NCBI RefSeq assembly: GCF_024347615.1
Contig: NZ_AP025509.1
Location: 868,001 to 932,000 of the forward strand
DNA: 64,000 bases
Direction of reading: 5' to 3'
Source: Vibrio splendidus
Lineage (GTDB): Bacteria; Pseudomonadota; Gammaproteobacteria; Enterobacterales; Vibrionaceae
Below the pieces are notes generated by a model. That model was given only the letters and a program-made list of their open reading frames with translations. It made no database searches and was not told where the DNA came from. Shown here piece by piece: positions 1-19,855 of this stretch. Within the stretch, counting starts at the first letter, position 1, and the number at the start of each line of letters is the position of its first letter. The translations under genes and the position numbers were made by a program.

Positions 1-1
1 G

Positions 2-3000
2 GTAACAGAAGATCACAATATTGATTCACAAGGCTTGTTACATGCGAACGGTAAAATTGATGTCATAGACCCTGACCAAAATGAAAATTCGGTTACGCCT
101 GAAGTTATCTCAGGTAAATATGGTTCATTAACTATCGATGCTGATGGACATTGGCAGTATCAAGTTGATAACTCGCTCTCTAATGTTCAAGCTTTAACCG
201 CAGCCACTTCATTGCACGAAAGTTTCACAATTCACACCAAAGATGGCACACCGCAAACGATCGATATGACGATTGGCGGGAACGACGACAATGCCGTAAT
301 TACGGGTGTGGATGCTGGCACGTTAACTGAAGATTTAACGACACAAGTTCAAGGGCAGCTTTCGGTAACGGACTCTGATCTTGGAGAGGACCACTTTCAA
401 GCCTCACAAGTGACTAGTAATTTCGGTACGCTAAGCATCACCAAAGACGGTGCGTGGACATACAGTTTAGACAACAATAACCCAGTAGTTCAAAGGCTTG
501 GCCAAGGTTCAACTGCGACAGACATCGTCACTGTTCACTCAGCTGATGGTACAGCGCATCAAGTCATGGTTACGATCAATGGCACCAACGACCATGCAGT
601 AATCACGAGTAGTTCAGCAAATTCACCAAGTTCATTTTTCGCTATCGGGACAAGTAATGGCTCAAGCCAAGTTACTGAAGATAAAGACCTAACGGTTTCA
701 GGCCAACTCAACATCACCGATATCGACTCAAAAGAGGCGCATTTTTCTAATTCCGACCTCAAGGGGACACTGGGTACTTTACACCTTAAAGACAATGGCG
801 ATTGGAGCTACGACCTAGATAATAAAAATCCACAAGTTCAGGCTCTTGGTCAAGGATCTACGACAACAGACATCATAACCATCCACTCCGCCGACGGCAC
901 TCCTCATCAAATTGCAATTACCGTTAACGGCACCAATGATAAAGCCGTGATAAGCGGAACAAGCTCCGGTGCAGTGACCGAAGAAACACAACTGCAAACC
1001 TCGGGCACACTTGCGGTAACGGATGTGGATACTGGCGAGGCACACTTCTCCAACACCGATATCGTAGGCTCGTTTGGTACGCTTCATCTGACTGATACTG
1101 GTTCTTGGACGTACGATCTTGATAATACAAATCCTAACGTTCAAGCATTGGGCAAAGGAGCAACCGCTACCGACACCATCACCGTTCATTCTGCTGATGG
1201 CACGCCGCATCAAGTGACTATCACAGTAAATGGCACTAATGACGCAGCTACTGTCAGCAGTGCGACCGTTGCCATCGATGAGACCGACAAAGCAGTAACG
1301 ACATCAGGAACGTTGACTAGTACCGATGTAGACAACCCAGACAACACGTTTACGCCAGACTCGATTACTGGATCTAACGGCGACCTAACTATTGATGCCA
1401 GTGGTCACTGGGTGTTCACCGCCAACAGCGCGTTTAATCAGTTAAACGTCGGCGACAAAGTAGAAGAAACCTTCACTGTCACTTCCGTTGATGGCACACC
1501 TTCGACCATTAAAGTCACGATTAACGGCACTAACGACGCCGCTACTGTCAGCAGTGCGACCGTCGCTATCGATGAAACCGACAAAGCGGTAACTACCTCA
1601 GGTACGCTAACCAGTACTGACGTGGATAATACAGATAATACCTTCACGCCGGATTCCGTTGTTGGATCTAATGGTGACCTGACTATTGATGCCAATGGTC
1701 ATTGGACGTTCACTGCGAACAGTGCGTTTAACCAATTGAATGTCGGCGATAAGGTCGAAGAGACCTTCACGGTATCTTCTGTTGATGGCACAGCGTCAAC
1801 CATCAAGGTGACGATTAACGGCACCAATGATAAAGCGACAGTCAGTACCGCAACGGTAAGTGTGGACGAGACTGACAAAGCGGTAACTACTTCAGGAACA
1901 TTGACTAGTACCGACGTGGATAACCCAGATAATGCGTTTACTCCGGATTCTATTGCAGGCACCAATGGCGACCTGACTATTGATGGTAATGGTCATTGGT
2001 CGTTCACCGCGAACAGTGCGTTTAATCAATTGAACGTCGGCGATAAAGTCGAAGAGACCTTCACGGTGTCGTCTGTTGATGGCACAACGTCGACCATCAA
2101 AGTGACGATTAATGGCACTAACGACAAAGCCACTGTTAGCAGTGCAAGCATCGCCATCGATGAAACTGACAAAGCTATAACTACCTCAGGAACGTTGACC
2201 AGCACCGACGTGGATAACCCTGACAACACATTCACTCCGGTTTCGCTCACAGGAACCCACGGCGGCTTAACCATTGATGCCAACGGGCATTGGGTGTTCA
2301 CCGCCGGCAGTGCGTTTAATCAGTTAAATATCGGCGACAAGGTCGAAGAGACCTTCACGGTGTCATCCATCGATGGCACACCGTCGACCATAAAAGTGAC
2401 GATCAATGGCACCAATGATAAAGCTACTGTCAGCAGTGCGACCGTCGCCATCGACGAGACTGACAAAGCGGTGACAACCTCAGGCACCCTAACCAGTATC
2501 GACGTCGATAACCCAGATAACGCATTCACACCGGATTCGATTACTGGCACCAACGGCAACCTCACCATTGGTGCTAACGGCCAATGGACCTTCACCGCCA
2601 ACAGCACGTTTAATCAACTAAACGTTGGTGATAAAGTCGAAGAAACCTTCACGGTGTCGTCTGTTGATGGCACACCTTCGACCATCAAAGTGACGATTAA
2701 CGGCACTAACGATGCAGCGACAGTCAGTACCGCAACAGTCAGTGTGGATGAGACCGACAAAGCGGTGACAACCTCAGGCACCCTAACCAGTATCGACGTC
2801 GATAACCCAGATAACGCATTCACACCGGATTCGATTACTGGCACCAACGGCAACCTCACCATTGGTGCTAATGGCCAATGGACCTTCACCGCCAACAGTG
2901 CGTTTAATCAATTAAACGTTGGCGATAAAGTCGAAGAAACATTCACCGTAACTTCGATTGATGGCACACCGTCCACCATCAAGGTAACGATTAACGGCAC

Positions 3001-6000
3001 TAACGACGCCGCTACTGTCAGCAGTGCGACCGTCGCCATTGATGAGACCGACAAAGCAGTAACGACCTCAGGCACCCTAACCAGTATCGACGTCGATAAC
3101 CCAGATAACGCATTCACACCGGATTCGATTACTGGCACCAACGGCAACCTCACCATTGGTGCTAATGGCCAATGGACCTTCACCGCCAACAGTGCGTTTA
3201 ATCAATTAAACGTTGGCGATAAAGTCGAAGAGACTTTCACTGTCTCGTCCATCGATGGCACACCTTCGACCATAAAAGTCACGATTAACGGGACCAATGA
3301 CAAAGCCGTGATAAGCGGAACAAGTGCCGGCGTGGTAACCGAAGAATCTCAGCTTAAAACCTCTGGCTCACTGACTGTGACTGATGTTGATGCCGGTCAA
3401 GCACACTTCTCCAATACCGATATTGCTGGGACTTTAGGCACCTTACACCTCACTGATTCGGGTACATGGACTTATGACTTAGATAATAAGAACCCAACCG
3501 TTCAAGCGTTAGGTAAAGGAACAACCGCTACCGATACCATTACTGTCCATTCTGCTGACGGCACACCACATCAAATTACGATTACGGTGAATGGCACCAA
3601 TGATGCAGCGGTAATCACTGGAACTACAACTGGCAATGTCGATGAAGGTCATGGCAGTTTCGGTGATATGTCACCAGATTACGCTCAACCTGGTTTGGTG
3701 AAGCTAGGACAAGCTGGACTATCAGCTGATGGCAAGTTGGATATTGTTGACCCAGATACTGGGGAATCTCAGTTTGACTCTAAAGGGGGAGCTTGGAATA
3801 ACTCTTACCATGGCCAGTATGGGCACTTAATATTAAACCCAGATGGTACTTGGCATTATCATGTTACTGTTGGCAGCGTTGATTGGGTTAGTCATCGTAA
3901 CACAACCGTCGGCACGACTATTGATGAATTAGGTGAAAATCAAACCCTCACCGACACCATTACCGTTTATTCTAAAGATGGTACAAGTCACGACATAGTC
4001 ATTACCATTCATGGTGATAATGATAGACCTTATATCAGTTCTGAAGTAACACTTTCCACAGGCACAGAAGATACAGCACTTACTTTCACCAAAGCTGATT
4101 TATTAGCCAATACTGTCGACGTGGATGCGAATGACGCAGGCAAACTTTCCATTGCGAATCTGTTAGTCGATCACGGTTCTGTTGTTGATAACAAAGATGG
4201 CACCTACACTTTTACTCCAACCAAAGACTATAACGGACAAGTTCATTTTAGCTATGACGTGACAGATGCGCATGGGGGTATCACTGCAACAGGCGCGAAT
4301 TTACACTTACAAGCAACTGGCGATGCTGCGACTATTACTGGAATTGATCAAGGGAATGTGACAGAAGATCGTGGTTATATTGATACACAATATAATCTTC
4401 ATTTTGATGGAAAATTAGATATTGTTGACCCCGACCAAGGTGAAGCTCAGTTTGATATTCAAAGAGGCCACACCTATCACGGAATTGGCTATGATACAAA
4501 AATGGGTGGGTGGGTACTTTTACAACAAGATGGTACTTATACTTATACAATTGATAATCGTAAACCAGAAATTCAAAACCTTGGGTCAACAGAGACTCTT
4601 GTCGATAAAGTGACAATCCACAGTGTCGATGGAACAAGTCATGAAATTCAGATCACAATCCACGGTACAAATGATGACCCTAAGGTTTCTTCGGTAACAA
4701 CTCTTCCTGCAGGAACTGAAGATACAGATGTCGTTCTACACGCTTCTGATTTACTCGCCAACGCTACAGACATCGACCACAATGATGCAGGGCAACTCTC
4801 AGTGGCCAATCTCACCGCCGACCATGGCAAAATCACCGATAATCATGACGGTACTTTTACCTTTCATCCAGCCCTAGATTACAATGGGAAAGTCTCTTTT
4901 ACCTATGATGTAAAAGATGCACATGCTGGCAGTACAGCGACTTCAGCGAGTATGACGTTAGCACCAACCAGTGATGCGGCGGTTATTACAGGCCCGCATT
5001 CTGGTGATATTACAGAAGATAAACTTCAGCAGTATCAAGGTATGTTAAGTGTTCATGGTGATTTGCATATAATTGATCCTGATAGTGGAGAAGATCACTT
5101 TACTACGGTGACAAAAATCCATGACCCATTTAATTCTCACCAAAATGGGTTGATTATTTCACCTAGTGGTTATTGGTACTATTCAGTGAGGAATGACTTA
5201 GTCCAGCATATGGCTCAGGGTGAAACAACAGATTTAGTGTACGAAGTGTCAACTGTTGATGGAACTACTCAACGAATTAATATCACACTTCATGGTACTA
5301 ATGATAATCCACACCTTATTTTTTCTGGTTATGGAAGTTTAGGTGGAGGTTCGAATCCAATAAGTACAGATGAAGATAAAGCGGTCACTATTCCAATAGA
5401 ACGCTTTAGTCTTGTTGGAAAAGATATTGACCACGGGGATGCCCTTCATCTAGAACAGCTGAGTGTTGACCATGGAACCGCTGTCATTTCTCCTGATGGG
5501 AAAACTGTGCTGTACACTCCTGAAGCTAATTTTAATGGACGTGCTACTTTTACTTACTATATCGCTGATAGTCATGGTGCTAGGGCAATAGACCCGTCTA
5601 CAGGCCATATCGGTATGTCAGGTATGATGCTTTCAGTGAATGCAGTATCTGATAAAGCTATTATTTCTGGGGTTGATACGGCGTCAATTATAGAAGACCA
5701 TAATATCGGGCACAGCTCAGCTCAAAAGATTGCAGTATCAGGCTCTTTGTCTGTAACTGATCCTGACACAGGCGAAGATCATTTCCGGTTTAACCAATTT
5801 GGTGAGAAAGCGATACATGACCCCTTTGGTGGAGATCTAAGAATAACTCCAGCTGGAAGTTGGGGGTATGAGGTTTCAAACAGTCGCTTGCAATCATTAG
5901 CTGAAGGTGAAGTAGAAAAGGTTGTATATCGTGTTTATTCTGCAGACCACACTGCCCACGATATAACCATAACGGTGACAGGCACCAATGATCAGCCGAC

Positions 6001-9000
6001 CATCATTGCGACAACACTTGCACATGGCACTGAAGACACGCACTACCAAATGCAAGCCAGTCAATTTGGGTTCACCGATATCGACTCCGGCGATACGCTA
6101 CATTCCATAGCAATCACAGATCTTCCGCCAGCAACACAAGGTAAGTTTTTACTTGATGGACACGATGTTACAGCGGGACAACAGATCCCTACAGCTGACA
6201 TCAGTAAACTTCAGTTCGTCCCTGCGCAAGATTTCAATGGCGATGTTCAGTTTAAATATACTGTTAACGATGGGCATACCGACTCTCAAGAGGCTACTAA
6301 CACACTTCATATTGATGCGGTGGGAGATAAAGCCGTTATATCAGGTGTGGATACTGGCGATGTTTATGAAAACAGAAACCCTGATATGTCGCCAGACTTT
6401 GCCCAGCCAGGTATGGCACATTTAACTAATAGTATGATTCATGTTGAGGGGCAACTAACAATCATCGATCCAGATACCGGCGAGAATAGTTTTGATTCTA
6501 AAGGTATTGGTTATACCTATCATGGAAAATATGGCCATTTGATTCTTAATACAGATGGTAAATGGTTTTATGGTGTTGCAACCGGCACTGCTGATGTAAA
6601 TGGTGGATTAACAACAAATGTAGGATCGACGATTGATCAACTTGGTGCAAATGAGACACTCACTGATACGATAACGATACAAAGTAAAGACGGTACTACT
6701 CATGATATTGTTATCACGATACATGGTGACAACGATAGGCCTTATTGCAATAGTGAAGTACAACTTAATAGTGGTAAAGAAGACACGCAAGTATCGTTGA
6801 CTACTCAAGAGCTTCTTGCCAATACTGTCGACGTAGATGCGAATGACTTAGGCAAGCTGACGATTGCGAACCTTCATGCCGATCATGGTTCTATTCAAGA
6901 TAACAAAGACGGCACCTACACTTTTACCCCAACCAAAGACTATAACGGCCAAGTTCATTTTAGTTACGATGTAAAAGATGCGCATGGTGGTGTTACGCAT
7001 ACTGGAGCGAGTACGACACTTGCTGCTGTCGATGACAAAACCATTATTTCTGGCATTGATCATGGTGTTGCAACTGAAGATATCGCCACTCATATGTCTA
7101 CGAATGCCAATATTATGGATGCTGTAGATTGGCAAGCGCTACAAGTTACTGATGTAGACAGCCCTAATACTCAAGTCACTGTCGAATTTGCAGGCAAACA
7201 ATACACATGGAATATAGGCAGTAACCTAGATGTAACGACTCCTTATGGCAAATTCCAGTTCCACACTATCGCAAGTGGATCTCACAAAGGTGAGCACTCT
7301 TGGAGTTATATTGGCGACAATAATAATGTTCATGTTCAAGAGTTAAAGCATGGCGAATCATTAACCGAATCTATAAAGCTAATAGCAACCGATGGTACTG
7401 AATTTCCTATTACGGTTAAGGTTAACGGCACAGAGGATGGGGTCGTCATCGATTCCAATTCAGAACTGGGTCATGTCGTAGAAAATGCCCAAACAGGTGC
7501 TTCAGTTACCGGCAATGTAGTCGCACATGATGTTGATCTCCACGATACGGTGAGCTGGACACAAACACCAACAGGTGGCATTAGCGGTCAGTATGGAACG
7601 TTCCATCTAAGTGCAGATGGACAATGGCATTATGACGTTGATCAGAGCAAAGCGACAAAACTAGGAGACGGCGACGAATATTGGGAGCACTTTACGGTTG
7701 AGGCAGTGTCTACTGATGGTAGCCATGTCTCGAAAAGTGTCTCTGTTGTTGTGCATGGCAATAATGATGTACCAACCGTTAGTGGTGAGGTCTCTTTACC
7801 TTCAGGTAAGGAAGATACTTCAATACATATTACACAAGCTGAATTAATCGCTAATGCGACAGATGTTGATACTAACGATAGAGGTTGGTTACACGTTGAA
7901 AACTTGACTGCAGACCACGGTAGCTTGGTATCAAATTCAGATGGCAGTTTTACCTTTAACCCCGACCCTAATTACAACGGAACGGTCAACTTTACTTACG
8001 ATGTTGCCGATAGACACGGTGGCATAGCTCATACAAGAGCAAACACTTCTCTTGTTGCTGTTAATGATGCCGCAACATTTACCGGTGACTCCGGCAGCAT
8101 AAGTGAAGATACAAACATTCATCACAACTTGCATACCACCGGGTCAGCAACCATTCCAGATGCCCTTTTTTGTCATGGGCACCTGATTGTTTCTGACGCT
8201 GATGGGCATGGCGAAGCTGCATTAGATCTTAAGGGGCAACAGAAAATATCTCTTGATGGAACCTATGGTCATTTCGACATCACTAGTACTGGGAGATGGG
8301 TTTATAAAGCAGACAACAATAGTGTGCCTATTCAAGACTTAGACAATGGACAAACACTCACAGATAGCATTGAAGTCACATCAAAAGACGGTACCAAGCA
8401 TTCAATAACCGTCACGATTAATGGGACCACCGATGATCCTGTTCTTCACAGCCTTAGTGATTCTGGTGTTCAACATAGTGGTCCAGTTGAAGGGAATCTA
8501 CTTACTGGCTCTGGGACGGATCAAGGATTGAGTGGTGCAGCAACAGACACCGATTCCAACGCACATCTGGTGTTGCAAGATATTCAAATAAAAGACCCCG
8601 TGTCAGGTTATGTCGCGGTAAGGCCGGGGCAACCACATACTATGGCCGGTATCGGTACACTCGCGATCGAAGCGAATGGTCATTATACCTTCACCCCGGA
8701 AGCTGGCTTTACAGGTAAAGTGCCAAGTATGGTTTATCGTGTCGGCGATGATGGTGGTAACCCAATAGGAGATTCTTCTCAAAATTCTCTCTCTATTGAA
8801 GTCACCCCTCCTCTACAACATGCGCCAACGGTGACAGGGCAAACCGTTTCTACAAATGAAGACATCACCAGAACCTTTACAACCAGTGAATTTGGTTACA
8901 GTGATCAAGATGGCGACACGTTACAGTTCGTGACTATTAGCAGCATACCGAGCCATGGATTATTACTTCTAAACGGTAACGCCGTAACCGCCAACCAGCA

Positions 9001-11944
9001 AATCAGCAAGGCTGACTTAGACGCAGGCCATTTAACCTTTACGCCGATCACTAATGAAAACGGCGCCAACTATGCGCAATTTACATTTACTGCGAATGAT
9101 GGCCATAAAAATTCGGCAAGCGCAACGATGGTAGTGGATGTTAGTGCAGTCAATGATGCACCTATCGTTGGATCGAGTTTTATTAGTTCTTTAGAAGATA
9201 AGCCTCATGCGTTCACCACCGCAGACTTTAAATATTCTGATATTGATGGAGATGCGTTAAACCACATCACGATTACCAATGTCGCCCATGGCGTGTTATC
9301 GCTGAATGGCACCACAGTGAATGTTGGTGATGACGTCAGCGCCTCCGACGTTTCATCACTCATCTTCACCCCAACTCACAACTACTTTAGTTCTGGTGTC
9401 AGCGGATTAGGAGGGGTGCAATTTACCGCAAACGATGGTCATCTTGATTCAAAAGAAGGGTCAATACTCATTAATATAGCGAGTGTCGCTGACCCTGCAA
9501 CATTCAGTGGAGACTCCACAGGAGTGGCCAAAGAAGACATAACACTTCAAGCTTCAGGTACGTTGACGGCGAGTGATCCTGATGGAACAGCAGGGTTTAC
9601 CGCGGTACAGGGTGGAGCTGGAATAGCCGGAAGCAAAGGCTATGGGCACGCTCATATCGATGTAAATGGTCACTGGACTTACGACCTTGATAACAACCAT
9701 CCTATAGTTCAACAGCTTGGCGAAGGTCAGACAGACACTGAAACCATCACGGTTCAATCTGCAGATGGCACGCACCATGATATCGTGGTTACCATTACCG
9801 GAACCAATGACGCACCGATTCTCGGCGTTAACCAAACATCATCAACGACAGGCACATTAACAGAGACAGATGTAGACGTTAATGACACTCATATGTTCTC
9901 TGTCGTCAGCTCAACAGGGCAATTCGGTTCATTGTCGGTAGATCCAAATACTGGTGACTACGTCTACACACCAAATACCTCTATCACAGGAATGAGTTAT
10001 AACTCTGCCACCAACTCCTATCATGGTGTCGATGTATTCGAAGTAAAAGTCAGTGACGGCCATACGGAAGATTCGAAATTCATCACCTTTGATGCCTCGG
10101 GACATGTCACCATGTCACCAACGGGTAGCTTAGTCACCTCGACGACTGTTCCGCACCAACCTGTGGTAACTGCGACGCAACCAACCTTGCCTTCAGGCAC
10201 TAACGTCGCGCCAACGAACACCGTTACTCTGGATCTCGCGTCAACAAGCGATTCAGGTTCATCGCAAACTGACAACCTGACCAATGACACGACCCCAACG
10301 ATTACCGGACACACTGATATTCCATTCTCGAAAGTCACGATTTACGATGGTTCCACACCCGTTGGACACTCGGTATCTGATGCCTCTGGCCAATATAGTG
10401 TTTCAGTAAGCAGCTTATCGGACGGCGATCATAATCTATCCGCCAAAGCATTGGCTCCTTCATCAGTGATGTCTGCAACTTCTTCGCCTCTGTCTGTCCA
10501 TATAGATACGCAAGTACACGTCGGTATTCAAACAGACCCGATTACCGCCGACAATGTGATTAATGCTCAAGAATCCAACAGCTCCATTGACATCACCGGA
10601 TCCGTTTCTGGCGATTTTAATACAGGCGACATTGTGACTTTAGATGTAAATGGGACACAGCATACTGGCGTGGTCGATGCAAAAGGACACTATTCAATTG
10701 CCGTACCTGGCAGTGAACTCATCGCCGATGCTGACCAAAAAATAGAGGCATCAGTAGCGGTAACAGATACCGCAGGTAATAGCGCTCATGCCACTGCAGA
10801 TGTTACTTACCAAGTTGATACACAGGTTAGCGTTCCTACGATTACCTTTGAAAACGCAGGGGCAGACAACTTATACAGCAAAGCTGAAATCGCCCGAGGA
10901 CAAGCAAACACGATCACAGCAACCGTTACGCCTCCTGGTGATGCCAAAATCGGTGAGCATCTTGTCGTTAACGGTCAGGATCATGTATTAGATGCTCATA
11001 CTCTACAGCACGGAATACAAATTGAAGTTCATCCGGGTTCTAATGTACAAGCAACAATGACTGACGAACACGGTAATACCGCGGGTAGCCAAGGTTTTGC
11101 TGCAAGCGCTATTCCTGAACCAATTATTGTCAGACCGCCATCGGGAAGCCACCAAGTGTCTGGCACTCTTGGAATACCACCACTGTTACCATCTTTAACT
11201 CCGGTACCAACAGCACAAAGCGGTTGGCGAATCCATTTACCTAATGGACAATATGTCACCAGCCACCATGGGCAATATGGAACATTAACCATTGATCCTC
11301 AAACCGGCCACTTACATTACCAAGAGCAAGCTCAGGTTCATACGGGCCCACATGGCAGCGCTTCAGGTATCGGTCAACATGAAGATAAATTTGAAGTAGC
11401 ATTGCAAGGGTCAAATCAAGATGAAGTGGTCGCCCATGTGAATATTCAGATACTCAGTCATGGGCCTGGACATAGTGGAAAGCTGACAGTTGGAACTGAA
11501 GTGGTTGATATGACAATCACACCTTTAGTCCATACATCGCACCCTGCGCCACCGCCACCGCCTCCTGTTCAACATGACGAGCCAGATATGGCTTCGCAAG
11601 CCGACTTTACGGTCACACTAAGCGATGATAGTAATCTGGATTTAACCCAGCAGACCCATCAAGAACCCGAACAGAAAACCAGCCACCATGGTGCAGCAGC
11701 TTATCTGGATGCATTGGGCATTAAACCCGATGCGACATCGACAACGGTTCACGATCAACCTGCGGATATGGATATCGTACTTGCACAAGTCGACCAACCA
11801 GATGCAGCAACACATGACCAAGCGCACTTGGATATGTCAGACGCGCTGGAACACCATGATGCAAACATCAACCATAACCAAGATGATGAGCACCATCATC
11901 ACAACGATATCGATGGGTTACCGGACATTGATCCAAATAGTTAA
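2..11944 (+). CDS. Giant VCBS/cadherin-like repeat surface protein (5' truncated)
   Basis: The reading frame is open at the left edge, and the first codons already encode a VCBS repeat (VTEDHNID...), so the true N-terminus lies outside; the TTG at 35 is only an internal codon. At least 3980 residues are visible. VCBS repeats of about 100 residues (pattern ...VTED...G.L.v.D.D.Ge..F......G..G.l.i...G.W.Y.ld n) dominate. Interspersed are tandem-95/cadherin-like units (TEDT...DLLANT.D.D.ND) that recur near 4030, 4690, 6740 and 7790. Bacterial Ig-like units lie near 10200-10900, and a degenerate last VCBS-like unit at about 11200-11460. A proline run (PPPPPP near 11550) leads into an Asp/His-rich C-terminus. 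No GGxGxDxLx nonapeptides are visible. Such proteins are typically type I-secreted adhesins of the cell surface or biofilm matrix. The adjacent convergent secretion operon is the likely exporter (inference). Confidence 0.93.
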   Translation, partial: VTEDHNIDSQGLLHANGKIDVIDPDQNENSVTPEVISGKYGSLTIDADGHWQYQVDNSLSNVQALTAATSLHESFTIHTKDGTPQTIDMTIGGNDDNAVITGVDAGTLTEDLTTQVQGQLSVTDSDLGEDHFQASQVTSNFGTLSITKDGAWTYSLDNNNPVVQRLGQGSTATDIVTVHSADGTAHQVMVTINGTNDHAVITSSSANSPSSFFAIGTSNGSSQVTEDKDLTVSGQLNITDIDSKEAHFSNSDLKGTLGTLHLKDNGDWSYDLDNKNPQVQALGQGSTTTDIITIHSADGTPHQIAITVNGTNDKAVISGTSSGAVTEETQLQTSGTLAVTDVDTGEAHFSNTDIVGSFGTLHLTDTGSWTYDLDNTNPNVQALGKGATATDTITVHSADGTPHQVTITVNGTNDAATVSSATVAIDETDKAVTTSGTLTSTDVDNPDNTFTPDSITGSNGDLTIDASGHWVFTANSAFNQLNVGDKVEETFTVTSVDGTPSTIKVTINGTNDAATVSSATVAIDETDKAVTTSGTLTSTDVDNTDNTFTPDSVVGSNGDLTIDANGHWTFTANSAFNQLNVGDKVEETFTVSSVDGTASTIKVTINGTNDKATVSTATVSVDETDKAVTTSGTLTSTDVDNPDNAFTPDSIAGTNGDLTIDGNGHWSFTANSAFNQLNVGDKVEETFTVSSVDGTTSTIKVTINGTNDKATVSSASIAIDETDKAITTSGTLTSTDVDNPDNTFTPVSLTGTHGGLTIDANGHWVFTAGSAFNQLNIGDKVEETFTVSSIDGTPSTIKVTINGTNDKATVSSATVAIDETDKAVTTSGTLTSIDVDNPDNAFTPDSITGTNGNLTIGANGQWTFTANSTFNQLNVGDKVEETFTVSSVDGTPSTIKVTINGTNDAATVSTATVSVDETDKAVTTSGTLTSIDVDNPDNAFTPDSITGTNGNLTIGANGQWTFTANSAFNQLNVGDKVEETFTVTSIDGTPSTIKVTINGTNDAATVSSATVAIDETDKAVTTSGTLTSIDVDNPDNAFTPDSITGTNGNLTIGANGQWTFTANSAFNQLNVGDKVEETFTVSSIDGTPSTIKVTINGTNDKAVISGTSAGVVTEESQLKTSGSLTVTDVDAGQAHFSNTDIAGTLGTLHLTDSGTWTYDLDNKNPTVQALGKGTTATDTITVHSADGTPHQITITVNGTNDAAVITGTTTGNVDEGHGSFGDMSPDYAQPGLVKLGQAGLSADGKLDIVDPDTGESQFDSKGGAWNNSYHGQYGHLILNPDGTWHYHVTVGSVDWVSHRNTTVGTTIDELGENQTLTDTITVYSKDGTSHDIVITIHGDNDRPYISSEVTLSTGTEDTALTFTKADLLANTVDVDANDAGKLSIANLLVDHGSVVDNKDGTYTFTPTKDYNGQVHFSYDVTDAHGGITATGANLHLQATGDAATITGIDQGNVTEDRGYIDTQYNLHFDGKLDIVDPDQGEAQFDIQRGHTYHGIGYDTKMGGWVLLQQDGTYTYTIDNRKPEIQNLGSTETLVDKVTIHSVDGTSHEIQITIHGTNDDPKVSSVTTLPAGTEDTDVVLHASDLLANATDIDHNDAGQLSVANLTADHGKITDNHDGTFTFHPALDYNGKVSFTYDVKDAHAGSTATSASMTLAPTSDAAVITGPHSGDITEDKLQQYQGMLSVHGDLHIIDPDSGEDHFTTVTKIHDPFNSHQNGLIISPSGYWYYSVRNDLVQHMAQGETTDLVYEVSTVDGTTQRINITLHGTNDNPHLIFSGYGSLGGGSNPISTDEDKAVTIPIERFSLVGKDIDHGDALHLEQLSVDHGTAVISPDGKTVLYTPEANFNGRATFTYYIADSHGARAIDPSTGHIGMSGMMLSVNAVSDKAIISGVDTASIIEDHNIGHSSAQKIAVSGSLSVTDPDTGEDHFRFNQFGEKAIHDPFGGDLRITPAGSWGYEVSNSRLQSLAEGEVEKVVYRVYSADHTAHDITITVTGTNDQPTIIATTLAHGTEDTHYQMQASQFGFTDIDSGDTLHSIAITDLPPATQGKFLLDGHDVTAGQQIPTADISKLQFVPAQDFNGDVQFKYTVNDGHTDSQEATNTLHIDAVGDKAVISGVDTGDVYENRNPDMSPDFAQPGMAHLTNSMIHVEGQLTIIDPDTGENSFDSKGIGYTYHGKYGHLILNTDGKWFYGVATGTADVNGGLTTNVGSTIDQLGANETLTDTITIQSKDGTTHDIVITIHGDNDRPYCNSEVQLNSGKEDTQVSLTTQELLANTVDVDANDLGKLTIANLHADHGSIQDNKDGTYTFTPTKDYNGQVHFSYDVKDAHGGVTHTGASTTLAAVDDKTIISGIDHGVATEDIATHMSTNANIMDAVDWQALQVTDVDSPNTQVTVEFAGKQYTWNIGSNLDVTTPYGKFQFHTIASGSHKGEHSWSYIGDNNNVHVQELKHGESLTESIKLIATDGTEFPITVKVNGTEDGVVIDSNSELGHVVENAQTGASVTGNVVAHDVDLHDTVSWTQTPTGGISGQYGTFHLSADGQWHYDVDQSKATKLGDGDEYWEHFTVEAVSTDGSHVSKSVSVVVHGNNDVPTVSGEVSLPSGKEDTSIHITQAELIANATDVDTNDRGWLHVENLTADHGSLVSNSDGSFTFNPDPNYNGTVNFTYDVADRHGGIAHTRANTSLVAVNDAATFTGDSGSISEDTNIHHNLHTTGSATIPDALFCHGHLIVSDADGHGEAALDLKGQQKISLDGTYGHFDITSTGRWVYKADNNSVPIQDLDNGQTLTDSIEVTSKDGTKHSITVTINGTTDDPVLHSLSDSGVQHSGPVEGNLLTGSGTDQGLSGAATDTDSNAHLVLQDIQIKDPVSGYVAVRPGQPHTMAGIGTLAIEANGHYTFTPEAGFTGKVPSMVYRVGDDGGNPIGDSSQNSLSIEVTPPLQHAPTVTGQTVSTNEDITRTFTTSEFGYSDQDGDTLQFVTISSIPSHGLLLLNGNAVTANQQISKADLDAGHLTFTPITNENGANYAQFTFTANDGHKNSASATMVVDVSAVNDAPIVGSSFISSLEDKPHAFTTADFKYSDIDGDALNHITITNVAHGVLSLNGTTVNVGDDVSASDVSSLIFTPTHNYFSSGVSGLGGVQFTANDGHLDSKEGSILINIASVADPATFSGDSTGVAKEDITLQASGTLTASDPDGTAGFTAVQGGAGIAGSKGYGHAHIDVNGHWTYDLDNNHPIVQQLGEGQTDTETITVQSADGTHHDIVVTITGTNDAPILGVNQTSSTTGTLTETDVDVNDTHMFSVVSSTGQFGSLSVDPNTGDYVYTPNTSITGMSYNSATNSYHGVDVFEVKVSDGHTEDSKFITFDASGHVTMSPTGSLVTSTTVPHQPVVTATQPTLPSGTNVAPTNTVTLDLASTSDSGSSQTDNLTNDTTPTITGHTDIPFSKVTIYDGSTPVGHSVSDASGQYSVSVSSLSDGDHNLSAKALAPSSVMSATSSPLSVHIDTQVHVGIQTDPITADNVINAQESNSSIDITGSVSGDFNTGDIVTLDVNGTQHTGVVDAKGHYSIAVPGSELIADADQKIEASVAVTDTAGNSAHATADVTYQVDTQVSVPTITFENAGADNLYSKAEIARGQANTITATVTPPGDAKIGEHLVVNGQDHVLDAHTLQHGIQIEVHPGSNVQATMTDEHGNTAGSQGFAASAIPEPIIVRPPSGSHQVSGTLGIPPLLPSLTPVPTAQSGWRIHLPNGQYVTSHHGQYGTLTIDPQTGHLHYQEQAQVHTGPHGSASGIGQHEDKFEVALQGSNQDEVVAHVNIQILSHGPGHSGKLTVGTEVVDMTITPLVHTSHPAPPPPPPVQHDEPDMASQADFTVTLSDDSNLDLTQQTHQEPEQKTSHHGAAAYLDALGIKPDATSTTVHDQPADMDIVLAQVDQPDAATHDQAHLDMSDALEHHDANINHNQDDEHHHHNDIDGLPDIDPNS
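1244..3301 (+). repeat. Seven tandem 294-bp units inside the giant gene
   Basis: Seven consecutive 98-residue units start at 1244, 1538, 1832, 2126, 2420, 2714 and 3008. Each begins (A/K)ATVS and contains DETDKA and VEETFTV, ending TINGTND. Units 5, 6 and 7 are almost identical in DNA over most of their length (compare 2475-2600, 2769-2894 and 3066-3190). This implies recent duplication or gene conversion. Units 1-4 are more diverged. The flanking VCBS repeats differ clearly in sequence. Confidence 0.93.
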
Positions 11945-11962
11945 CCGATAACGAGACTAAAC

Positions 11963-11991
11963 AAAAGGGAGCACATGATGTGCTCCCTTTT
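11963..11991. terminator. Bidirectional terminator between the giant gene and the secretion operon
   Basis: Perfect 13-bp stem (AAAAGGGAGCACA, loop TGA, TGTGCTCCCTTTT) at 11963-11975/11979-11991. The A-rich and T-rich stem ends let it serve both converging transcripts. Confidence 0.9.
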
Positions 11992-12033
11992 CTATTTTCT
12001 TATTCGTATACTCTCATCGACTAGTTAAAGTAG

Positions 12034-13347
12034 CTACCTTTCACCAAATGCGACACTGACATTGGTGTAGATCGGTTTCCATAAATACTGGAAAACGGAC
12101 TTCTCACCGGTTGTAATATCTACCTCGCCCGTCATACCTGGCAAGATAGAAAAGCTCTCCGGATTATCACGGAAATAGGGAACATCCACCGAGACGACGA
12201 CTTCATAATAGATCTCGCCACGTTCGCTTTGACTTGTGGTCGGTGAAATACTCTCAACCGCTCCTTTTAGCGCCCCAAAGCGGCTGTAATCAAACGCATC
12301 AATCTTGATACGAGTCGGCTGCCCTACACTAACAAAACCAATATCTCTTGGCGATAAACGCGCTTTAAAGTCTGCTTTCCCACCAACAGGAACAATTTCA
12401 ACCACTGTCCCACCCGGCTGAATAACACCTCCGTTCTGTGTACTTGGCAGGCTTTGCACCAAACCTTGTAGCGGCGACACTAACATGGTGTAGGTCAGTT
12501 TCGCTTGGCTTGAACGTACTCTGGCGTTCAGGGCTGACAAGTCAGAGACGGCTTTAGAACGATCATCGCTCACTTTAGCTTTCGCCTCGGCCAGAAGCTG
12601 TATAATTTTTTGGTCATTACTGTCAGCTTGTCTAATCAATACCGACTTCTTGCCACGAGCTTCTTCAATTTTCTGCTCAATACTGGCCAGTTTCTGACGC
12701 ATTTCAAGCACACGTAAGCGTGAAATGTTGCCCGATTTATAACCCTTTTCCAGTATGTTCAACTCTTGCTTAGTCGCATTTAACTCTTTCTCATAACTCG
12801 GCAAGGCCTTTTCTACGCTACGAAGCTGCTCTGCAATTTGCTCGCTCTCTTTCTCAAGCACCACACGCTTTTGGAAGTAGAGGGCTTTTTGCGCGTTTAG
12901 CTGCGCTTTTTGTTGGCTGACGATCTCTGGGTAATCGACCTCAAACTCAGCAAGGTTAGGCTCACGCTGCTCAAGCAGCGCATTCATACGTTCCACACTG
13001 GCTAGAAGCGTCACTTGTTGGGACTTTAGCTCTTCAAGGGCGGTACGCTGGAAAGTGGCATCAAACTCAACAAGCGGCTGGCCTTTCTCTACCAACTGGC
13101 CTTCTTTAACGAGAATTTGCTTTAACTTACCGCCAATCGCGCTTTGTAATACTTGCTTCTCGCCTTCCGGAATCACAGCACCTTTGGCTTTGGCGATTTC
13201 ATCAACTTGAGTGACTACAGACCAAGTGGCAAAAGCAATAACACATAAGGCAACCGACCATGTGGCCAGCGCCAATGTACGAGCCGTATTTTGTGATTCA
13301 ACAAGTTCACCGTAGCGCTTGCCCTTCTCGATAGATTGTTTAGTCAT
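12034..13347 (-). CDS. HlyD-family type I secretion membrane-fusion protein
   Basis: A 437-residue adaptor that would bridge the inner-membrane ABC exporter to an outer-membrane TolC-type channel. One N-terminal membrane segment (about residues 25-45, LALATWSVALCVIAFATW) is followed by a split lipoyl/biotinyl-like domain (VLVKEG.LV.KGQPLVEFD type). A long Gln/Glu/Lys-rich coiled coil comes next, then the C-terminal beta-barrel (SPRDIGFV.VGQ...KIDAFDY). The length is usual for HlyD/LapC proteins. I place the start at 13347 because AAGGAG lies seven bases upstream. That ATG overlaps the stop of the upstream ABC gene as ATGACTAA, which implies translational coupling. It is the last gene of the three-gene secretion operon. 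No TolC homologue is in the window. Confidence 0.93.
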   Translation of the reverse strand: MTKQSIEKGKRYGELVESQNTARTLALATWSVALCVIAFATWSVVTQVDEIAKAKGAVIPEGEKQVLQSAIGGKLKQILVKEGQLVEKGQPLVEFDATFQRTALEELKSQQVTLLASVERMNALLEQREPNLAEFEVDYPEIVSQQKAQLNAQKALYFQKRVVLEKESEQIAEQLRSVEKALPSYEKELNATKQELNILEKGYKSGNISRLRVLEMRQKLASIEQKIEEARGKKSVLIRQADSNDQKIIQLLAEAKAKVSDDRSKAVSDLSALNARVRSSQAKLTYTMLVSPLQGLVQSLPSTQNGGVIQPGGTVVEIVPVGGKADFKARLSPRDIGFVSVGQPTRIKIDAFDYSRFGALKGAVESISPTTSQSERGEIYYEVVVSVDVPYFRDNPESFSILPGMTGEVDITTGEKSVFQYLWKPIYTNVSVAFGER

Positions 13348-15592
13348 TAGCGACTCCTTGCTTAGACTTTGATTGTTCTTGTTGGGCTGCATTTTGTTGA
13401 GCAGACGCCTCTTGAGTTGACGGCTGTAGCTCTTGAGATAACGGTTGCTCAGATAACAGCGGTTCTTGAGAAGCTTGAGGCTCTGAAGGCTGTTCCTGCT
13501 TCGAAGACTGCTCCGGCTCTAATGGACCGGCATAAACCACTGCACCTTCATTTAATACCACCACTTTATCGGCAAGCTTGATTAAATCCGGATCGTGGGA
13601 CGTGTAAATCACCGTTGCTTTTCCTTTTTTCGACTGCACAAACTCACCAAATATACGTTTAGCATTTGGGTGAGCATCAGGCACAGGATTATCCATTAAG
13701 AACATTGGGTAGTCATAAACCAGCGCTTTCGCGTCAATGAGGATCTGCGCGACGCTGCCAGACAACATGTCAAAAAGGCTGTCCGGCTGAATACTGCTGA
13801 TGGAAGTATCGAGCCCACCTGATAATGTCTCGAACCAACGCTTTCCTCCCACAATTTCAATTGCAGAGATCATTTTCTGATCTTCGACTTTGTGACCGTC
13901 GTTTAGCCACTCTCGAATACTCAGCGTAAGCAAATCAGGATATGCGGCTCGAATGAAACACCAGTGGCGATAAAGCTGCGGATCGTATTGAACGAGGTTA
14001 ACGCCTTCAAGCTCGACCATGCCGTTTTGGATAGGCTGCAAGCCAGACAGCACTTCAATTAATGTTGATTTACCGCTCCCAGAAGGGCCGGTAATCGCGA
14101 CAATTTCACCGGCTTCAATATCAAAGCTCACACCATTCAAAGCGGGGCGACTCTGTTTAGGATAACGCAGTGTCACTTGGTCTAATTTCAAGTTAGGCGC
14201 TACCACAGGTAACGGGTGATGCTGGTAACTGAATTCACGCTCAGATGGCTGAGACAAAATACGGTTCACTTGCAGCTTGGATTGATTAAAGCTATTAAAA
14301 CGCATCGCGCTGTTTGCCAACACCTGAGCTGGGCCAGTCACCTTAGATATCAACATCATTGAAGCAATCAAACCACCGGGCGTCATCACTTGTTCAAAAA
14401 TAAGTCCTATTCCTAACCCCATCACGGCGAGTGTCGACCCCACACCAATGAAATAGTAAATCGAGGTGTACCGGCTCTGGAGAACCGATTGATTAAAGGT
14501 CACTGTTGAAGCAAGAAGATTGGCCTTTTTGAAACGTTGAATCCAGTGCTCTGAGAATCCAGCACTGCGAATAAAGGCAAGCTTGGATGACAGTTCATTG
14601 GTCATGTTTTGACGATTCGTACCTGCCACTGTCGATTGCATTGAGCGCTTACTGCTAGAGCGTATCGAGCGTTTTGCTAGCAAGTAATAAAGGATTAAAG
14701 AGACGACTGGAACCAGTACCAACCATCCGCCTAAAACACCTATCGCAAGTACAAAAATAAGAATGAATGGCAGATCAAACAGCGCATTTCCTAATGGCCC
14801 CGATAGCACACCTGAAATACGCTCTGACAGCATCACTTGGTTTTGCTGACTAGAAGAAGCTGTTTGCTGATTTTGAGCATAGCTATTACGAAGCAGACGC
14901 TGCACGAGGGATTGAGAAATCTCACGACTTACTCGGTTGGAAACTGAAGCAAACACTCGGCTACGTAATGTTCTCAACCAACCCATCATCACAAACAACA
15001 ACGCCGCGCCAATGGCGATACCTTGCAACTCATGCCCTGCATCACCACCAATCACATGGTCATAAATCGACATCGTGATGAAGGGAACAGCAAGCGCAAA
15101 TAAGTTAGTGATAAAGCTGACCAACAACAATTTAGGAATGATGGGACGAAACGCATGTAACCTTTCGCCAACCCAGTCAGGAGAGGCCTTCTCTAATGGT
15201 GGCCCATCGATAACGATGAAAAACTGAGGGACATCGGTGATGTCGTCATTGGCGTTAAAAGCAACAAATTGCTTGGATTCTAAATGACCAGAGACCAGCT
15301 CATGTTCACCAAGTACCAGTAAGACCAATTTATGTTCACCAACTTCATCTAGGTTGGCAACCAAGCGATAAGGCAGTGCAAGCCTGTCGAACAAGGCAAA
15401 CATATCGTCGATTGATTCAATGCCATTTTCATCGACCCATTGATGTGCGAACAACTGGATATTAGCATTCACTTCCAACTGCTTAAGAACGGAAAGGCTC
15501 TCGGTTTCTAAATGATTCATCACCTCTTGTCGACCGCTGGTATCTGCACGGTTGTTCTTACCTGAAGGGTTACCAATATCTAAACGATTCAT
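13340..15592 (-). CDS. Type I secretion ABC exporter subunit A, degenerate ATPase motifs
   Basis: A 750-residue ABC exporter half. The first ~130 residues are a soluble domain placed where LapB/HlyB-type exporters have a C39-like domain, but I see no catalytic Cys/His motif. The membrane domain spans about 145-440. The nucleotide-binding domain has an intact Walker A (GPSGSGKST, residues 502-510). The signature is LSGSV (610-614) instead of LSGGQ. Walker B reads FLMDNP, so the catalytic Glu is Asn635 after Asp634. The Q-loop Gln is not apparent, and the switch His (TSHDPD) is kept. The last ~60 residues are a Gln/Glu/Ser/Pro-rich tail. The start ATG (15592) overlaps the upstream stop as ATGA and has AGGAGG in front. 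It probably pairs with the next ABC protein as a heterodimer (inference). Confidence 0.9.
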   Translation of the reverse strand: MNRLDIGNPSGKNNRADTSGRQEVMNHLETESLSVLKQLEVNANIQLFAHQWVDENGIESIDDMFALFDRLALPYRLVANLDEVGEHKLVLLVLGEHELVSGHLESKQFVAFNANDDITDVPQFFIVIDGPPLEKASPDWVGERLHAFRPIIPKLLLVSFITNLFALAVPFITMSIYDHVIGGDAGHELQGIAIGAALLFVMMGWLRTLRSRVFASVSNRVSREISQSLVQRLLRNSYAQNQQTASSSQQNQVMLSERISGVLSGPLGNALFDLPFILIFVLAIGVLGGWLVLVPVVSLILYYLLAKRSIRSSSKRSMQSTVAGTNRQNMTNELSSKLAFIRSAGFSEHWIQRFKKANLLASTVTFNQSVLQSRYTSIYYFIGVGSTLAVMGLGIGLIFEQVMTPGGLIASMMLISKVTGPAQVLANSAMRFNSFNQSKLQVNRILSQPSEREFSYQHHPLPVVAPNLKLDQVTLRYPKQSRPALNGVSFDIEAGEIVAITGPSGSGKSTLIEVLSGLQPIQNGMVELEGVNLVQYDPQLYRHWCFIRAAYPDLLTLSIREWLNDGHKVEDQKMISAIEIVGGKRWFETLSGGLDTSISSIQPDSLFDMLSGSVAQILIDAKALVYDYPMFLMDNPVPDAHPNAKRIFGEFVQSKKGKATVIYTSHDPDLIKLADKVVVLNEGAVVYAGPLEPEQSSKQEQPSEPQASQEPLLSEQPLSQELQPSTQEASAQQNAAQQEQSKSKQGVAND

Positions 15593-17235
15593 ACGACGGC
15601 CTCCTGAGTGCTCTCGCTGTCGACCGTAATAGCTCGACTTTCCACTGTAATGATTCGATTAGCCAATTCGCGAAGCTTAGAATAGTAGCTCACCATCAGT
15701 ATCGTCCGCCCTGCTGTTACTTCTTCTTCCAACACCTTAGCTAAATTCCCAAGGGCGTCTAAATCAAGTGAAGAATCCGGCCTTTCCAACATGATTATGG
15801 GTTTATCACTTGCCAATTGAGCCGCGATATTGAGCATTTTCACGTTACCCATACTCAACAAAGAAGCACTCGTATGGCCAATTTGTGTCTCGAGCCCATC
15901 GGGTAATCGAGTAATCTCTTTGGTTAAACCCAAACGCTTTGCATAGTCACTGGCGCTTTGCGTTTTCTCAGGGTCAAAACCGCACAAGTTGTCGAGAATA
16001 GTACCCGACACCAACTGCCCTTTAACGCCGCAGTAGGCCGCAATGTTGGTTACGGATGCGATTGAAACGGCAGCTCCGTTAATGAAGCACTCCCCCGCTT
16101 TTAGATCATCGATACCTGCAATCGACGACAATAAATGACTGTTGGTGTGGCGGTCCTCACTCTCTAACAATACCAACTCACCTTTATTCAGTGTGACATC
16201 TGCATGAGAGAGTTCACCGTATCTTTCAACGGTCGCTTGCTTAATTTCCAACGTCTCAAACTCAGATAAGTGGTTCTCAGCTTGCTCAGAACCTGAAAAC
16301 TCAGATAGTGACAAGTCACTCAATTTTTCTATTGCCTGATTAGCACTGTGTATTGAATTAAGCTTGATTCTAACCCCAACCAGAGCACTCAAAGGCGCAA
16401 CCGCTCTGCCAGATAAGATAGAACATGCCGCCAAGCCACCAGTAGTTAACTGACCATCCAACACCCACAAGCTCCCCGTAATTACGAGTAAAACTGACGT
16501 GGCTAATGCGGCAAGCTGAATACATTCTTGGGCAAAGGCGTTCTGTTCTTCTTCTCTCGCTTTAGACTGAGACCGAACGTTATTGAGGGATTTAAACTGA
16601 TTGAAGATTCGAGACTCAACGGCCTGGCGTTTGATTCCCTGAATGGTTTGGCTTAGCAAAATCAAAAACGCTTTTCGCTCCTGCTCATCTTGGGAAGCCT
16701 CTTCACTTAAGCTTTTAACACGAATAGAAGATAACCAAACGATTCCAAGAGTAATCAGCCAAACTGCCAAAGGTATCGCCACCAGCTCACCGCCGATGTA
16801 AGCCACCAAGCCCAAGAAGATCAAGGCAAAAGGCAAATCAATAAAGCCTGCAATCACACCACCGGAATACCAATCTTTGACTTTTGATACTGAGCCCAGC
16901 CCCTCTTCCACGCCGCCAACACCAATGTGGCGAAGATGGCCTGATGAAGCCGTTGTTACTCTTTCAACCAAGGTTTGATAGGTCACTTTCTCGGTATTGC
17001 TGGCCGCGGCTGACAAAAGCCAAGTACGCACAAACCGGATTAATGCTTCCATGGCAACAGCCAACGCTGCACCCGCCAACAACAATGTGGCAGTACCGTA
17101 ACTTTGGTTAGGTAAAATACGATCGTAAATTTGTAAAACCGTTAATGGAACGGCGAGAGAGAGAAGATTCATGAGTAAAGAAGGCAGTAGGACTTTCCCC
17201 ACCACCCCTTTGTTTTTCATTGAACTTGCGGGCAT
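15589..17235 (-). CDS. Type I secretion ABC exporter subunit B, ATPase-dead partner
   Basis: A 548-residue ABC exporter half and first gene of the secretion operon. The ATG at 17235 has AAGGA six bases upstream; a TTG six bases earlier is unlikely. The membrane domain starts almost at the N-terminus (LLPSLLMNLLSLAVPLTVLQ), with no C39-like domain. The nucleotide-binding domain keeps the fold pattern but has lost its motifs. The Walker A position (about 355-365) reads ESEDRHTNSH, with no GxxGxGKS. The signature is LSMGN. Walker B reads IIMLERP, giving Glu484-Arg485 in place of Asp-Glu. The switch His is Tyr (MVSYYSK). The D-loop SSLD remains. It is probably non-hydrolytic and structural in a heterodimer with the 750-residue subunit. 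The frame is intact over full length and coupled to its neighbour, so it does not look like a pseudogene. Confidence 0.9.
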   Translation of the reverse strand: MPASSMKNKGVVGKVLLPSLLMNLLSLAVPLTVLQIYDRILPNQSYGTATLLLAGAALAVAMEALIRFVRTWLLSAAASNTEKVTYQTLVERVTTASSGHLRHIGVGGVEEGLGSVSKVKDWYSGGVIAGFIDLPFALIFLGLVAYIGGELVAIPLAVWLITLGIVWLSSIRVKSLSEEASQDEQERKAFLILLSQTIQGIKRQAVESRIFNQFKSLNNVRSQSKAREEEQNAFAQECIQLAALATSVLLVITGSLWVLDGQLTTGGLAACSILSGRAVAPLSALVGVRIKLNSIHSANQAIEKLSDLSLSEFSGSEQAENHLSEFETLEIKQATVERYGELSHADVTLNKGELVLLESEDRHTNSHLLSSIAGIDDLKAGECFINGAAVSIASVTNIAAYCGVKGQLVSGTILDNLCGFDPEKTQSASDYAKRLGLTKEITRLPDGLETQIGHTSASLLSMGNVKMLNIAAQLASDKPIIMLERPDSSLDLDALGNLAKVLEEEVTAGRTILMVSYYSKLRELANRIITVESRAITVDSESTQEAVV

Positions 17236-17334
17236 ACACAATCCTTATCCATGCTTATGAAATAAGACTGGTACACCATGTTCAGTATTGCAAGGTAACG
17301 GACTGATTTAACGTGTTTTTCAATATAAATATGA

Positions 17335-17360
17335 CACAGATCTTTTTACACAAATCTGTG
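17335..17360. promoter_or_regulatory. Inverted repeat between catB-like gene and secretion operon
   Basis: CACAGAT at 17335-17341 and ATCTGTG at 17354-17360 form a 7-bp inverted repeat with a 12-base spacer, about 100 bases upstream of the secretion operon start. It could be a regulator site for that operon or a weak terminator for the catB-like gene; its minus-strand tail is T-rich but interrupted. Confidence 0.35.
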
Positions 17361-17400
17361 GCTAAACCCGTACCTTAAAAATGCTCGTTACAAGCGCTCC

Positions 17401-18036
17401 TTACAAACAATTGTCGTAATCCGTTATCGCCTGCTTTAGCTTTGAAAAGTCTGAGTTACATAAATACGGTTTCAGCGCTTCAAATTTATCTGAGGGCCAC
17501 TCGTATATTTTGAATGACATGAGCTCGTCAATAACGAACTCATCAAAGCGGTATTTGACGACTTTAGCTGGTGAGCCACCGACAATGCTGTATGGAGCGA
17601 CGTCTTTAGTCACCACACTATTCGCTGCGACTACAGCGCCTTCGCCAATCGTCACACCGGGCATCACCATCGCTCTCATGCCTACCCAAACCCCATCTTC
17701 AATGTGAGTATCGCCTTTGCCAATGTAGGCGTCGTCGATAACATCCATAAATGGATACAGTGAAAACCAATCAACTCTGTGTGTATGGTTGCCACCCATT
17801 AAAATCACGACCTCTGCGCCAATACAGACATAATCACCGATATAGAGTTCGTCGATTTCCCATCGAGGCTCCCACTGGCGGCTGACTTCGTCGCCGTGTA
17901 AATAGCGCACTACCGATTGTTCAAAACCATTATCCCAGCAATCGCTGTAATAACTGTGTTGACCTTTTACATGAATATTGGGGTTGGTTACGACTTCATG
18001 CAGCAACTCGAATTTGGACCAATGCTTCTTTTGCAT
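17401..18036 (-). CDS. catB: CatB-type xenobiotic (chloramphenicol) acetyltransferase
   Basis: A 211-residue left-handed beta-helix acetyltransferase of the XAT group. It transfers acetyl from acetyl-CoA to a hydroxyl of chloramphenicol or a related molecule, as a trimer. The hexapeptide repeats are clear (VWVGMRAMVMPGVTIGEGAVVAANSVVTKDV, quoted in part: IGEGAVV, VAANSVV). The catalytic-His motif is GGNHTHRVDW, and the C-terminal PAKVVKYRF is typical. Length matches CatB proteins (about 210). AGAGGT lies just before the ATG. It stands alone. Similar chromosomal genes occur across Vibrio, so it need not signal acquired resistance; the real substrate is unproven. Confidence 0.88.
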   Translation of the reverse strand: MQKKHWSKFELLHEVVTNPNIHVKGQHSYYSDCWDNGFEQSVVRYLHGDEVSRQWEPRWEIDELYIGDYVCIGAEVVILMGGNHTHRVDWFSLYPFMDVIDDAYIGKGDTHIEDGVWVGMRAMVMPGVTIGEGAVVAANSVVTKDVAPYSIVGGSPAKVVKYRFDEFVIDELMSFKIYEWPSDKFEALKPYLCNSDFSKLKQAITDYDNCL

Positions 18037-18455
18037 TTTTACCTCTGAATGATCTATTTAGTTTTATTCGTTAACGATCAAAATGTTCGACGGTGCAAAT
18101 CCAAGGTGCACAAACTAACGCCCTATAAACACAGGGTTCACTGGGACTAATAGTGAGTATCACGCTTAAATCATAGCAATGTCGCTAAAACTAAAGAGAC
18201 GTCAGTGGATTCGAGGTTGCTTAAGAAGAGGAAGTAGTTTCAAAGTTTGCTCAGTTTTTATCGATAACTTGGTTGGATAATTTACAGGCGTAGTGTAACT
18301 GTTTAGTCGCGCCAATTTGACAGGAAGATGTGATTAATAAGGTTTCAAATTTCGTTTCGTGGAATACGGAATGAACAAGAGCCTGCGCGATTACACAGGC
18401 TCAAACTTAGACTCGGCTATAAACTTCGGAGCTCGCTTGGAGCTAGGGTCAGCGA
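18037..18455. other. Intergenic region upstream of catB-like gene
   Basis: About 420 bases without a convincing gene. It should hold the catB promoter near 18040-18120. Near its right end is the hairpin described separately. I see no repeat or RNA gene in it. Confidence 0.5.
18379..18402 (-). terminator. Possible terminator of the OYE-family gene
   Basis: GAGCCTG/CAGGCTC 7-bp stem with a 10-base loop, lying 54 bases past the stop. On the minus strand it is followed by TTGTTCATT, a weak T tract. Confidence 0.45.
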
Positions 18456-19568: not shown

Positions 19569-19762
19569 GTGTCTTCCTCTCAAAATCGTGTTACGCGAGT
19601 TACCCATCAAGCATGGGCACTGATTCAGGCGGATACTACAGAGAATAAACTAGGGAAAACTTAATCTAGATTAAGAGAGCGCCACTCTCATATGAGGAAA
19701 AGGCAGAAAGAGACAGCAAAAGAATAGAAAGGCAGGAATTAGAGAGAACAAAGGAAGCAAAC

Positions 19763-19791: not shown

Positions 19792-19855
19792 CAGGGATTT
19801 ATAAGCTTATAGATTTATAGCTTGAAGGCTTTACTAAAAATCAGACTTAACAGCG

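Follow-up and report, generated by a model that had tools for sequence, protein, structure and literature searches.

Type I exporters of the HlyB/LapB kind (LssB, TIGR03375) combine an ATP-binding cassette (ABC) exporter fold with an HlyD partner and a large repeat protein encoded nearby, and LapA/LapG systems likewise bring together a giant repeat adhesin and a type I system. In the RtxB/RtxE system two different ABC proteins, both of them needed, serve the giant MARTX substrate, and the operon order is rtxBDE (excerpt of PMC3034196). Asymmetric ATP sites, to which the subunits give different halves, are a feature of TM287/288, TmrAB, TAP and CFTR; heterodimeric exporters with one degenerate site retain one canonical site, as stated in excerpts of PMC7756269 and PMC8277102. 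In searches of open-licence literature, no title or abstract beginning described a type I exporter without a catalytic site. Here we analyse two adjacent ABC exporter genes, A and B, in a stretch of 64,000 nucleotides from Vibrio splendidus (C2:868001-932000 of a two-contig genome; hereafter the window), whose nearest protein relatives are found in Vibrio, including V. lentus, V. splendidus and V. crassostreae. The pair shares with HlyB/LapB exporters the features named above, with RtxB/RtxE the two different ABC proteins per giant substrate, and with the heterodimers and CFTR the asymmetry of its sites. It departs from HlyB/LapB in having two dissimilar subunits, one of which lacks Walker A and the N-domain, and no canonical ATPase site. 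Members of this paired lineage carry LapB- or HlyB-like names in databases.

A sequence-only reading of the window had set the pair against exporters that are homodimers of one protein and had suggested a distinct exporter class. The former contrast is too strong, because RtxB/RtxE is a precedent for two ABC proteins. From the latter suggestion the absence of a canonical site and the separation from the RtxB/RtxE clade stand, but the pairing of two ABC proteins is already known; we regard A/B as a new variant of type I exporter.

Motif states of the two subunits

Both genes lie on the minus strand and are transcribed in the order B, A and then an HlyD-type adaptor gene. Subunit A (13340..15592, 750 aa) consists of a C39-like N-domain, an ABC exporter transmembrane domain (TMD) and a nucleotide-binding domain (NBD), and subunit B (15589..17235) of TMD and NBD only, without the N-domain. 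B may start at TTG (15589-17241) or ATG (15589-17235), of which ATG is favoured because its product then matches the nearest database relatives in length (548 aa). Both reading frames are intact, and the start of A overlaps the stop of B by 4 bp (ATGA) downstream of AGGAGG, in keeping with the two differing, translationally coupled halves of the sequence-only reading.

The ATPase domain of A covers approximately residues 468-690 (13523..14191, minus strand, as for the following positions, all by arithmetic from residue numbers). It contains an A-loop RY, Walker A GPSGSGKS (residues 502-509, 14066-14089), the signature LSGSV (residues 609-616) and the motifs FLMDN and TSHD. The Mg-binding Asp634 and the switch His666 (13595-13597) are kept; Asn635 stands where the catalytic Glu is expected (DNP; Asp634-Asn635, 13688-13693), the Q-loop Gln is absent as well and LSGGQ is lost. 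In B the P-loop is absent, with SEDRHTNS at the place of Walker A; the signature reads LSMGN (LSxG), Walker B reads MLERP with Glu-Arg for Asp-Glu, Tyr replaces the switch His and the D-loop SSLD is retained. These states agree with those first read from the sequence. Neither subunit has Walker A together with the catalytic Glu, and the pair has no canonical ATPase site.

In a composite site one chain supplies Walker A, Mg-Asp and His, its partner supplies the signature, and the D-loops lie at the interface (excerpt of PMC7756269). Judged by the motifs, the site formed by Walker A of B and the signature of A is gone, and the other one (Walker A, Mg-Asp and His of A with LSxG and D-loop Asp of B) is kept, minus the Glu and the Q-loop Gln of A. 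This asymmetry is what one single ATP-binding site would leave behind. The first reading, that no site has a catalytic Glu or a standard signature, holds insofar as no canonical site exists, but the two sites are not equally dead, the one on the A side being mostly kept. Unlike heterodimers with one degenerate site, the pair lacks the catalytic Glu also in its remaining site (DNP in A, ERP in B of the window), whereas in the Shewanella-type relatives A has this Glu.

Type I features are present in the exporter TMD fold, the HlyB-matching models and the HlyD partner gene. PF00664 scores over its cut-off in both subunits, PF00005 gives B 20.7 (below the cut-off of 25), and with TIGR03375 A (310.6 bits) and B (265.2) stay under the curated cut-off of 693.1, as they do under those for PrtD and HlyB (TIGR01842/TIGR01846). 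AlphaFold single-chain models (predicted local distance difference test, pLDDT, 85.1 for B and 83.3 for A) both find HlyB of the ATP-bound HlyB/D complex (8dck) as best PDB match. The N-domain of A is C39-like by fold match to HlyB and has no Cys in its first 140 aa. The two HlyB chains of the HlyB/D structure differ in length (691 and 570 residues), as if one N-domain per dimer were ordered; A with and B without this domain, as in the loci read, may parallel this pair of a long and a short chain.

Conservation, origin and order of losses

The first set comprised 69 fetched loci and the window, 70 loci with 65 complete copies of A (fragments from 5/70 dropped) and 68 of B (fragments from 2/70 dropped). 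The gene order B-A-HlyD is found in 70/70, a few with broken frames. Walker A is missing from all 68 complete B and retained in all 65 complete A. None of these A varies at Gly, Gly and Lys of Walker A, at the Mg-Asp or at the Asp that follows the switch His, and the codons of retained residues vary synonymously. B keeps the D-loop Asp in 68/68 and the signature Gly in 61/68. The Glu position of A is occupied by N in 55, S in 2, C in 1, T in 1 and E in 6 of the 65 copies, the switch His position by H in 59 and Q in 6, and a subclade of six loci (L093-L098) has lost both Glu and His. A second scan, with one genome per species and species overlapping the first set, took the best 76 loci from Vibrio, Aliivibrio, Ferrimonas, Shewanella, Colwellia, Agarivorans and Psychromonas. 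Walker A was missing from B in 76/76 and retained in A in 76 of 77 rows, and the Glu position showed N in 44, E in 28, T, S, C and D in one each and one blank fragment. Among the best 120 of 493 database relatives of B, some of them partial, none has a P-loop anywhere. Within the genus, 66 of 196 genomes carry the B gene at E < 1e-80; beneath this cut-off come one fragment and then LapB-like matches.

As controls, Walker A, an SGGQ-type signature, Asp-Glu and the switch His are all present in 10/10 RtxB/RtxE-like exporters, which differ from A/B also in having two long subunits (699-745 aa) and in forming a separate clade, and in 9/9 other full-length non-paired exporters (one more, L186, is truncated). 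The NBD ratios of nonsynonymous to synonymous substitution (dN/dS) are 0.03-0.12 for A and 0.05-0.12 for B (nine comparisons each), and the distances of A and B correlate with r 0.979 across 65 loci. Low dN/dS, synonymous codon variation and the motif states across relatives indicate that the genes are under selection and are not errors, which upholds the first reading in this respect.

In a family tree of 109 rows, 66 of which were used for the approximately unbiased (AU) test, the A-type rows form one group (99) and the B-type rows a second (100); RtxB/RtxE-like and LapB-like exporters fall outside both. A shared origin with RtxB/RtxE is unsupported by this tree, and a duplication within the lineage, tested by grouping the A and B families of the window, is rejected (p-AU 0.00015). 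The separate groups together with this rejection point to one ancient duplication as the origin of the pair. Eight loci of the same class (L285-L292) have the order B-A-HlyD, both P-loops and LSGGQ in neither subunit; A has Asp-Glu, B has either Asp-Glu or Asp-Asp, and the His is missing only from a single B. With Piscirickettsia B as query, at least 2,667 proteins match at E <= 0.001; among the 120 matches listed, 115 have the P-loop, 117 Asp-Glu, 80 His and 33 Pro at the His position, with LPRGI, LPKGI or LSRGV as the signature of most.

Motif states were mapped on a FastTree tree of A without its ATPase domain (112 rows; short, blank and identical rows omitted). The fewest changes are two for Glu and one for His, and no regain of Glu is needed. 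On this tree we place the Glu changes at the base of the Vibrio/Aliivibrio/Ferrimonas clade and in Psychromonas (Glu to Asp), and the His change at L093-L098. The order of losses on the tree is LSGGQ in both subunits, Walker A of B, Glu of A and finally the switch His of A in one subclade; long branches in the deep part of the trees call for caution. Six Vibrio loci (L110-L115) are of the Shewanella type with Glu, and three of these genomes carry both types.

The same genome has a second pair outside the window (L015:6192-14886; G000:C2:404192-412886), beside genes for a TolC-like protein, a hybrid-kinase-like protein (by eye) and HlyD, and adjoining a divergent giant adhesin gene. Its A2 keeps Glu, with Asn for His and LPNGI; its B2, with relatives in 49/196 genomes of the genus, has Asp-Asp, FSRQV and Asn for His. 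In the 109-row tree A2 and B2 join the A-type and B-type groups, respectively. The paired lineage seems prone to losing catalytic parts. In L187 a stop codon seems to divide the giant adhesin of this second pair into two long open frames (438-16709 and 16713-20000).

The giant VCBS protein as presumed substrate

Convergent on the HlyD gene lies a giant VCBS/cadherin-repeat gene on the plus strand, whose C-terminal part occupies 1..11944 of the window and whose start is at C2:867237, 764 bp left of it; the full product has 4,235 aa and is the presumed substrate. Its family-specific C-terminus (AYLDALGI ... DMDIVLA ... DIDPNS, 11132..11941, plus strand) is likely to be the export signal region. 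Of the 196 genomes of the genus, 54 have this C-terminus, and 53 of these have the pair as well; at the cut-off used, 13 of the 66 pair genomes give no match to it, and 129 genomes lack both (Fisher p 3e-34, uncorrected for relatedness). The exception among the 54, G185 (L303), retains the giant gene, HlyD and most of A, but B is lost, as are the first ~76 codons of A. Beside HlyD, a giant frame of the window's C-terminal type is convergent in 58/70 loci and co-oriented in 6/70 (by reading), and in the remaining loci that place is masked, truncated or occupied by other genes. The linkage to the giant gene proposed from the sequence is thereby borne out. In G108 and G168 the giant C-terminus lies ~12 kb from the pair.

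Each of 29 Shewanella-type pairs (L236-L264) has a co-oriented frame as the longest one beyond HlyD; 28 of these frames show the N-terminus of a giant protein of another type and one (L243) shows its repeats. Eleven giant N-termini of the Glu-less clade were read, from 11 of the 54 genomes with the C-terminus. A basic run and VxIPxxxLMLILPSL occur in ten of them, the window's own included, and the eleventh (L307) has Ile for one Leu; the pattern is found in 0/29 frames beside the Shewanella-type pairs, of which the L243 frame does not show an N-terminus. In the window's giant protein (L014:7237 onwards) the basic run comes with IPLFQSLMMILPSL. This N-terminus is possibly an anchor, and we would guess at a membrane plug. 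Unlike LapA, the giant protein has no GGxGxD repeats and no AAG, which we take to mark the LapG site, anywhere in its 4,235 aa (other di-alanine forms were not searched for). Elsewhere the genome has a Lap-like locus with a LapB whose motifs are all intact (L016).

A plasmid-like scaffold carries the pair in Vibrio europaeus, and Ferrimonas has it with a B 88% identical (L203 and L196). The B-A-HlyD cassette seems to move between species. One genome of the squid symbiont Aliivibrio fischeri (L219) also has the pair.

Proposed mechanism and its rivals

We propose, with slightly more confidence than doubt, that the pair is a heterodimer whose single ATP-binding site has weak or no hydrolysis and acts as the gate of a long-lived channel. 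On this view A and B would be obligate partners in a heterodimeric type I exporter that works with HlyD and a TolC whose gene lies elsewhere and exports the adjacent giant VCBS protein. The one composite site would comprise the A-loop aromatic, Walker A, Mg-Asp and switch His of A and the LSxG and D-loop of B; ATP bound there would close the NBDs and open the path. Since the catalytic Glu is gone, the ATP-bound state might reset very slowly, or not by hydrolysis. A long-lived open channel would suit the threading of a protein of >4,000 residues, and the pull might come from calcium-dependent folding of the repeats outside, acting as a ratchet, and perhaps also from the proton motive force. In CFTR a change of Glu to Ser abolishes hydrolysis, and slow closing approximates the true non-hydrolytic rate (excerpt of PMC10569789); Ser occupies the Glu position in 2/65 A relatives. 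We hold only tentatively the more far-reaching view that a type I lineage gave up ATP hydrolysis, binding opening a single-use or long-lived channel and folding and/or proton motive force paying for export.

Several points weigh against a single site with little or no hydrolysis. ATPase domains of HlyB with Glu changed to Gln reportedly keep some activity, and Asn with the kept His may therefore still hydrolyse ATP slowly. Shewanella-type relatives keep Asp-Glu in A beside a B without Walker A, so that loss of Glu is not required for exporting such proteins. The frame of A is broken in 5/70 loci, and that of B too in two of these, which means that some strains can do without the system. The correlation of A and B distances also follows from common descent, and the single-chain models do not show a predicted A-B interface. 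Finally, A Asp565 and B Glu451, conserved in the Glu-less clade and not in the Shewanella type, are known from sequence and might lie near the ATP.

The strongest rival, to which we give a real though clearly less than even chance, is an ordinary asymmetric exporter of low rate, which hydrolyses ATP slowly at the A site by means of the switch His and Mg-Asp or of a replacement acid. It would account for the retention of Walker A and Mg-Asp in 65/65 and of His in 59/65 copies of A, and the two clade-specific acids would be its candidates for the replacement. However, neither of them adjoins Walker B in sequence, where no new conserved acid is found as a replacement base, the state tree needs no regain of Glu, and L093-L098 lack both Glu and His, which counts against slow hydrolysis within that subclade.

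We consider it improbable that A and B are accessory half-transporters without power of their own, in a mixed complex whose ATPase comes from an intact exporter of the LapB type. All 66 pair genomes of the genus do have a LapB-type match above the cut-off, and HlyB/D complexes hold three ABC transporters according to the title of a reference. But the LapB-type gene is interrupted or partial in G014 and G169, and among 14 distinct genomes of another set (17 entries, merged by identical coordinates), of which G691 repeats G096 of the 66 and for which completeness is not given, 11 have a match over the cut-off and three have none. The best LapB-type score of Ferrimonas kyonanensis (B 88% identical) is 379.5 bits, from another C39-type exporter; Colwellia demingiae reaches 603.2 bits, near but under the cut-off, and a Psychromonas metagenome-assembled genome is also under it. 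The Ferrimonas pair without LapB/LssB over the cut-off and the broken or partial genes of G014 and G169 make such a partner less likely, and the cassette has its own HlyD and giant gene. The G014 copy (G014:C2:266407-268365) has seven in-frame stops. Decaying pseudogenes or sequencing errors deserve next to no credence: A is broken in 5/70 loci and one genome has lost B and the start of A, which would fit them, but A is unbroken in 65/70 and the same motif states recur in dozens of separately sequenced species, and this conservation together with the low NBD dN/dS refutes the reading for the family.

Engineered mutants have supplied most of the arguments on whether hydrolysis powers ABC export or just resets it. 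The pair points to a widespread paired exporter lineage that offers a graded series in one operon, from both P-loops (deep) through one (Shewanella type) and the Glu-less Vibrio/Aliivibrio clade to the subclade that lacks Glu as well as His; in each of the latter three groups giant repeat genes lie beside the pair. Comparing the members of this lineage could show which steps of type I secretion depend on hydrolysis.

As to the neighbouring genes, the sequence-only reading had allowed for a third, intact exporter left of the giant gene. A genome-wide PF00664 search gave no match there, which rules it out, and we read the genes in that place as a heavy-metal RND operon. The HlyD-type periplasmic adaptor gene (12034..13347, minus strand; longest open reading frame from 13392) reaches 368.5 bits with TIGR01843 (cut-off 208.65), and its start overlaps the end of A. 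Just upstream of B, on the same strand, lies an acetyltransferase-like gene (17401-18036, by eye).
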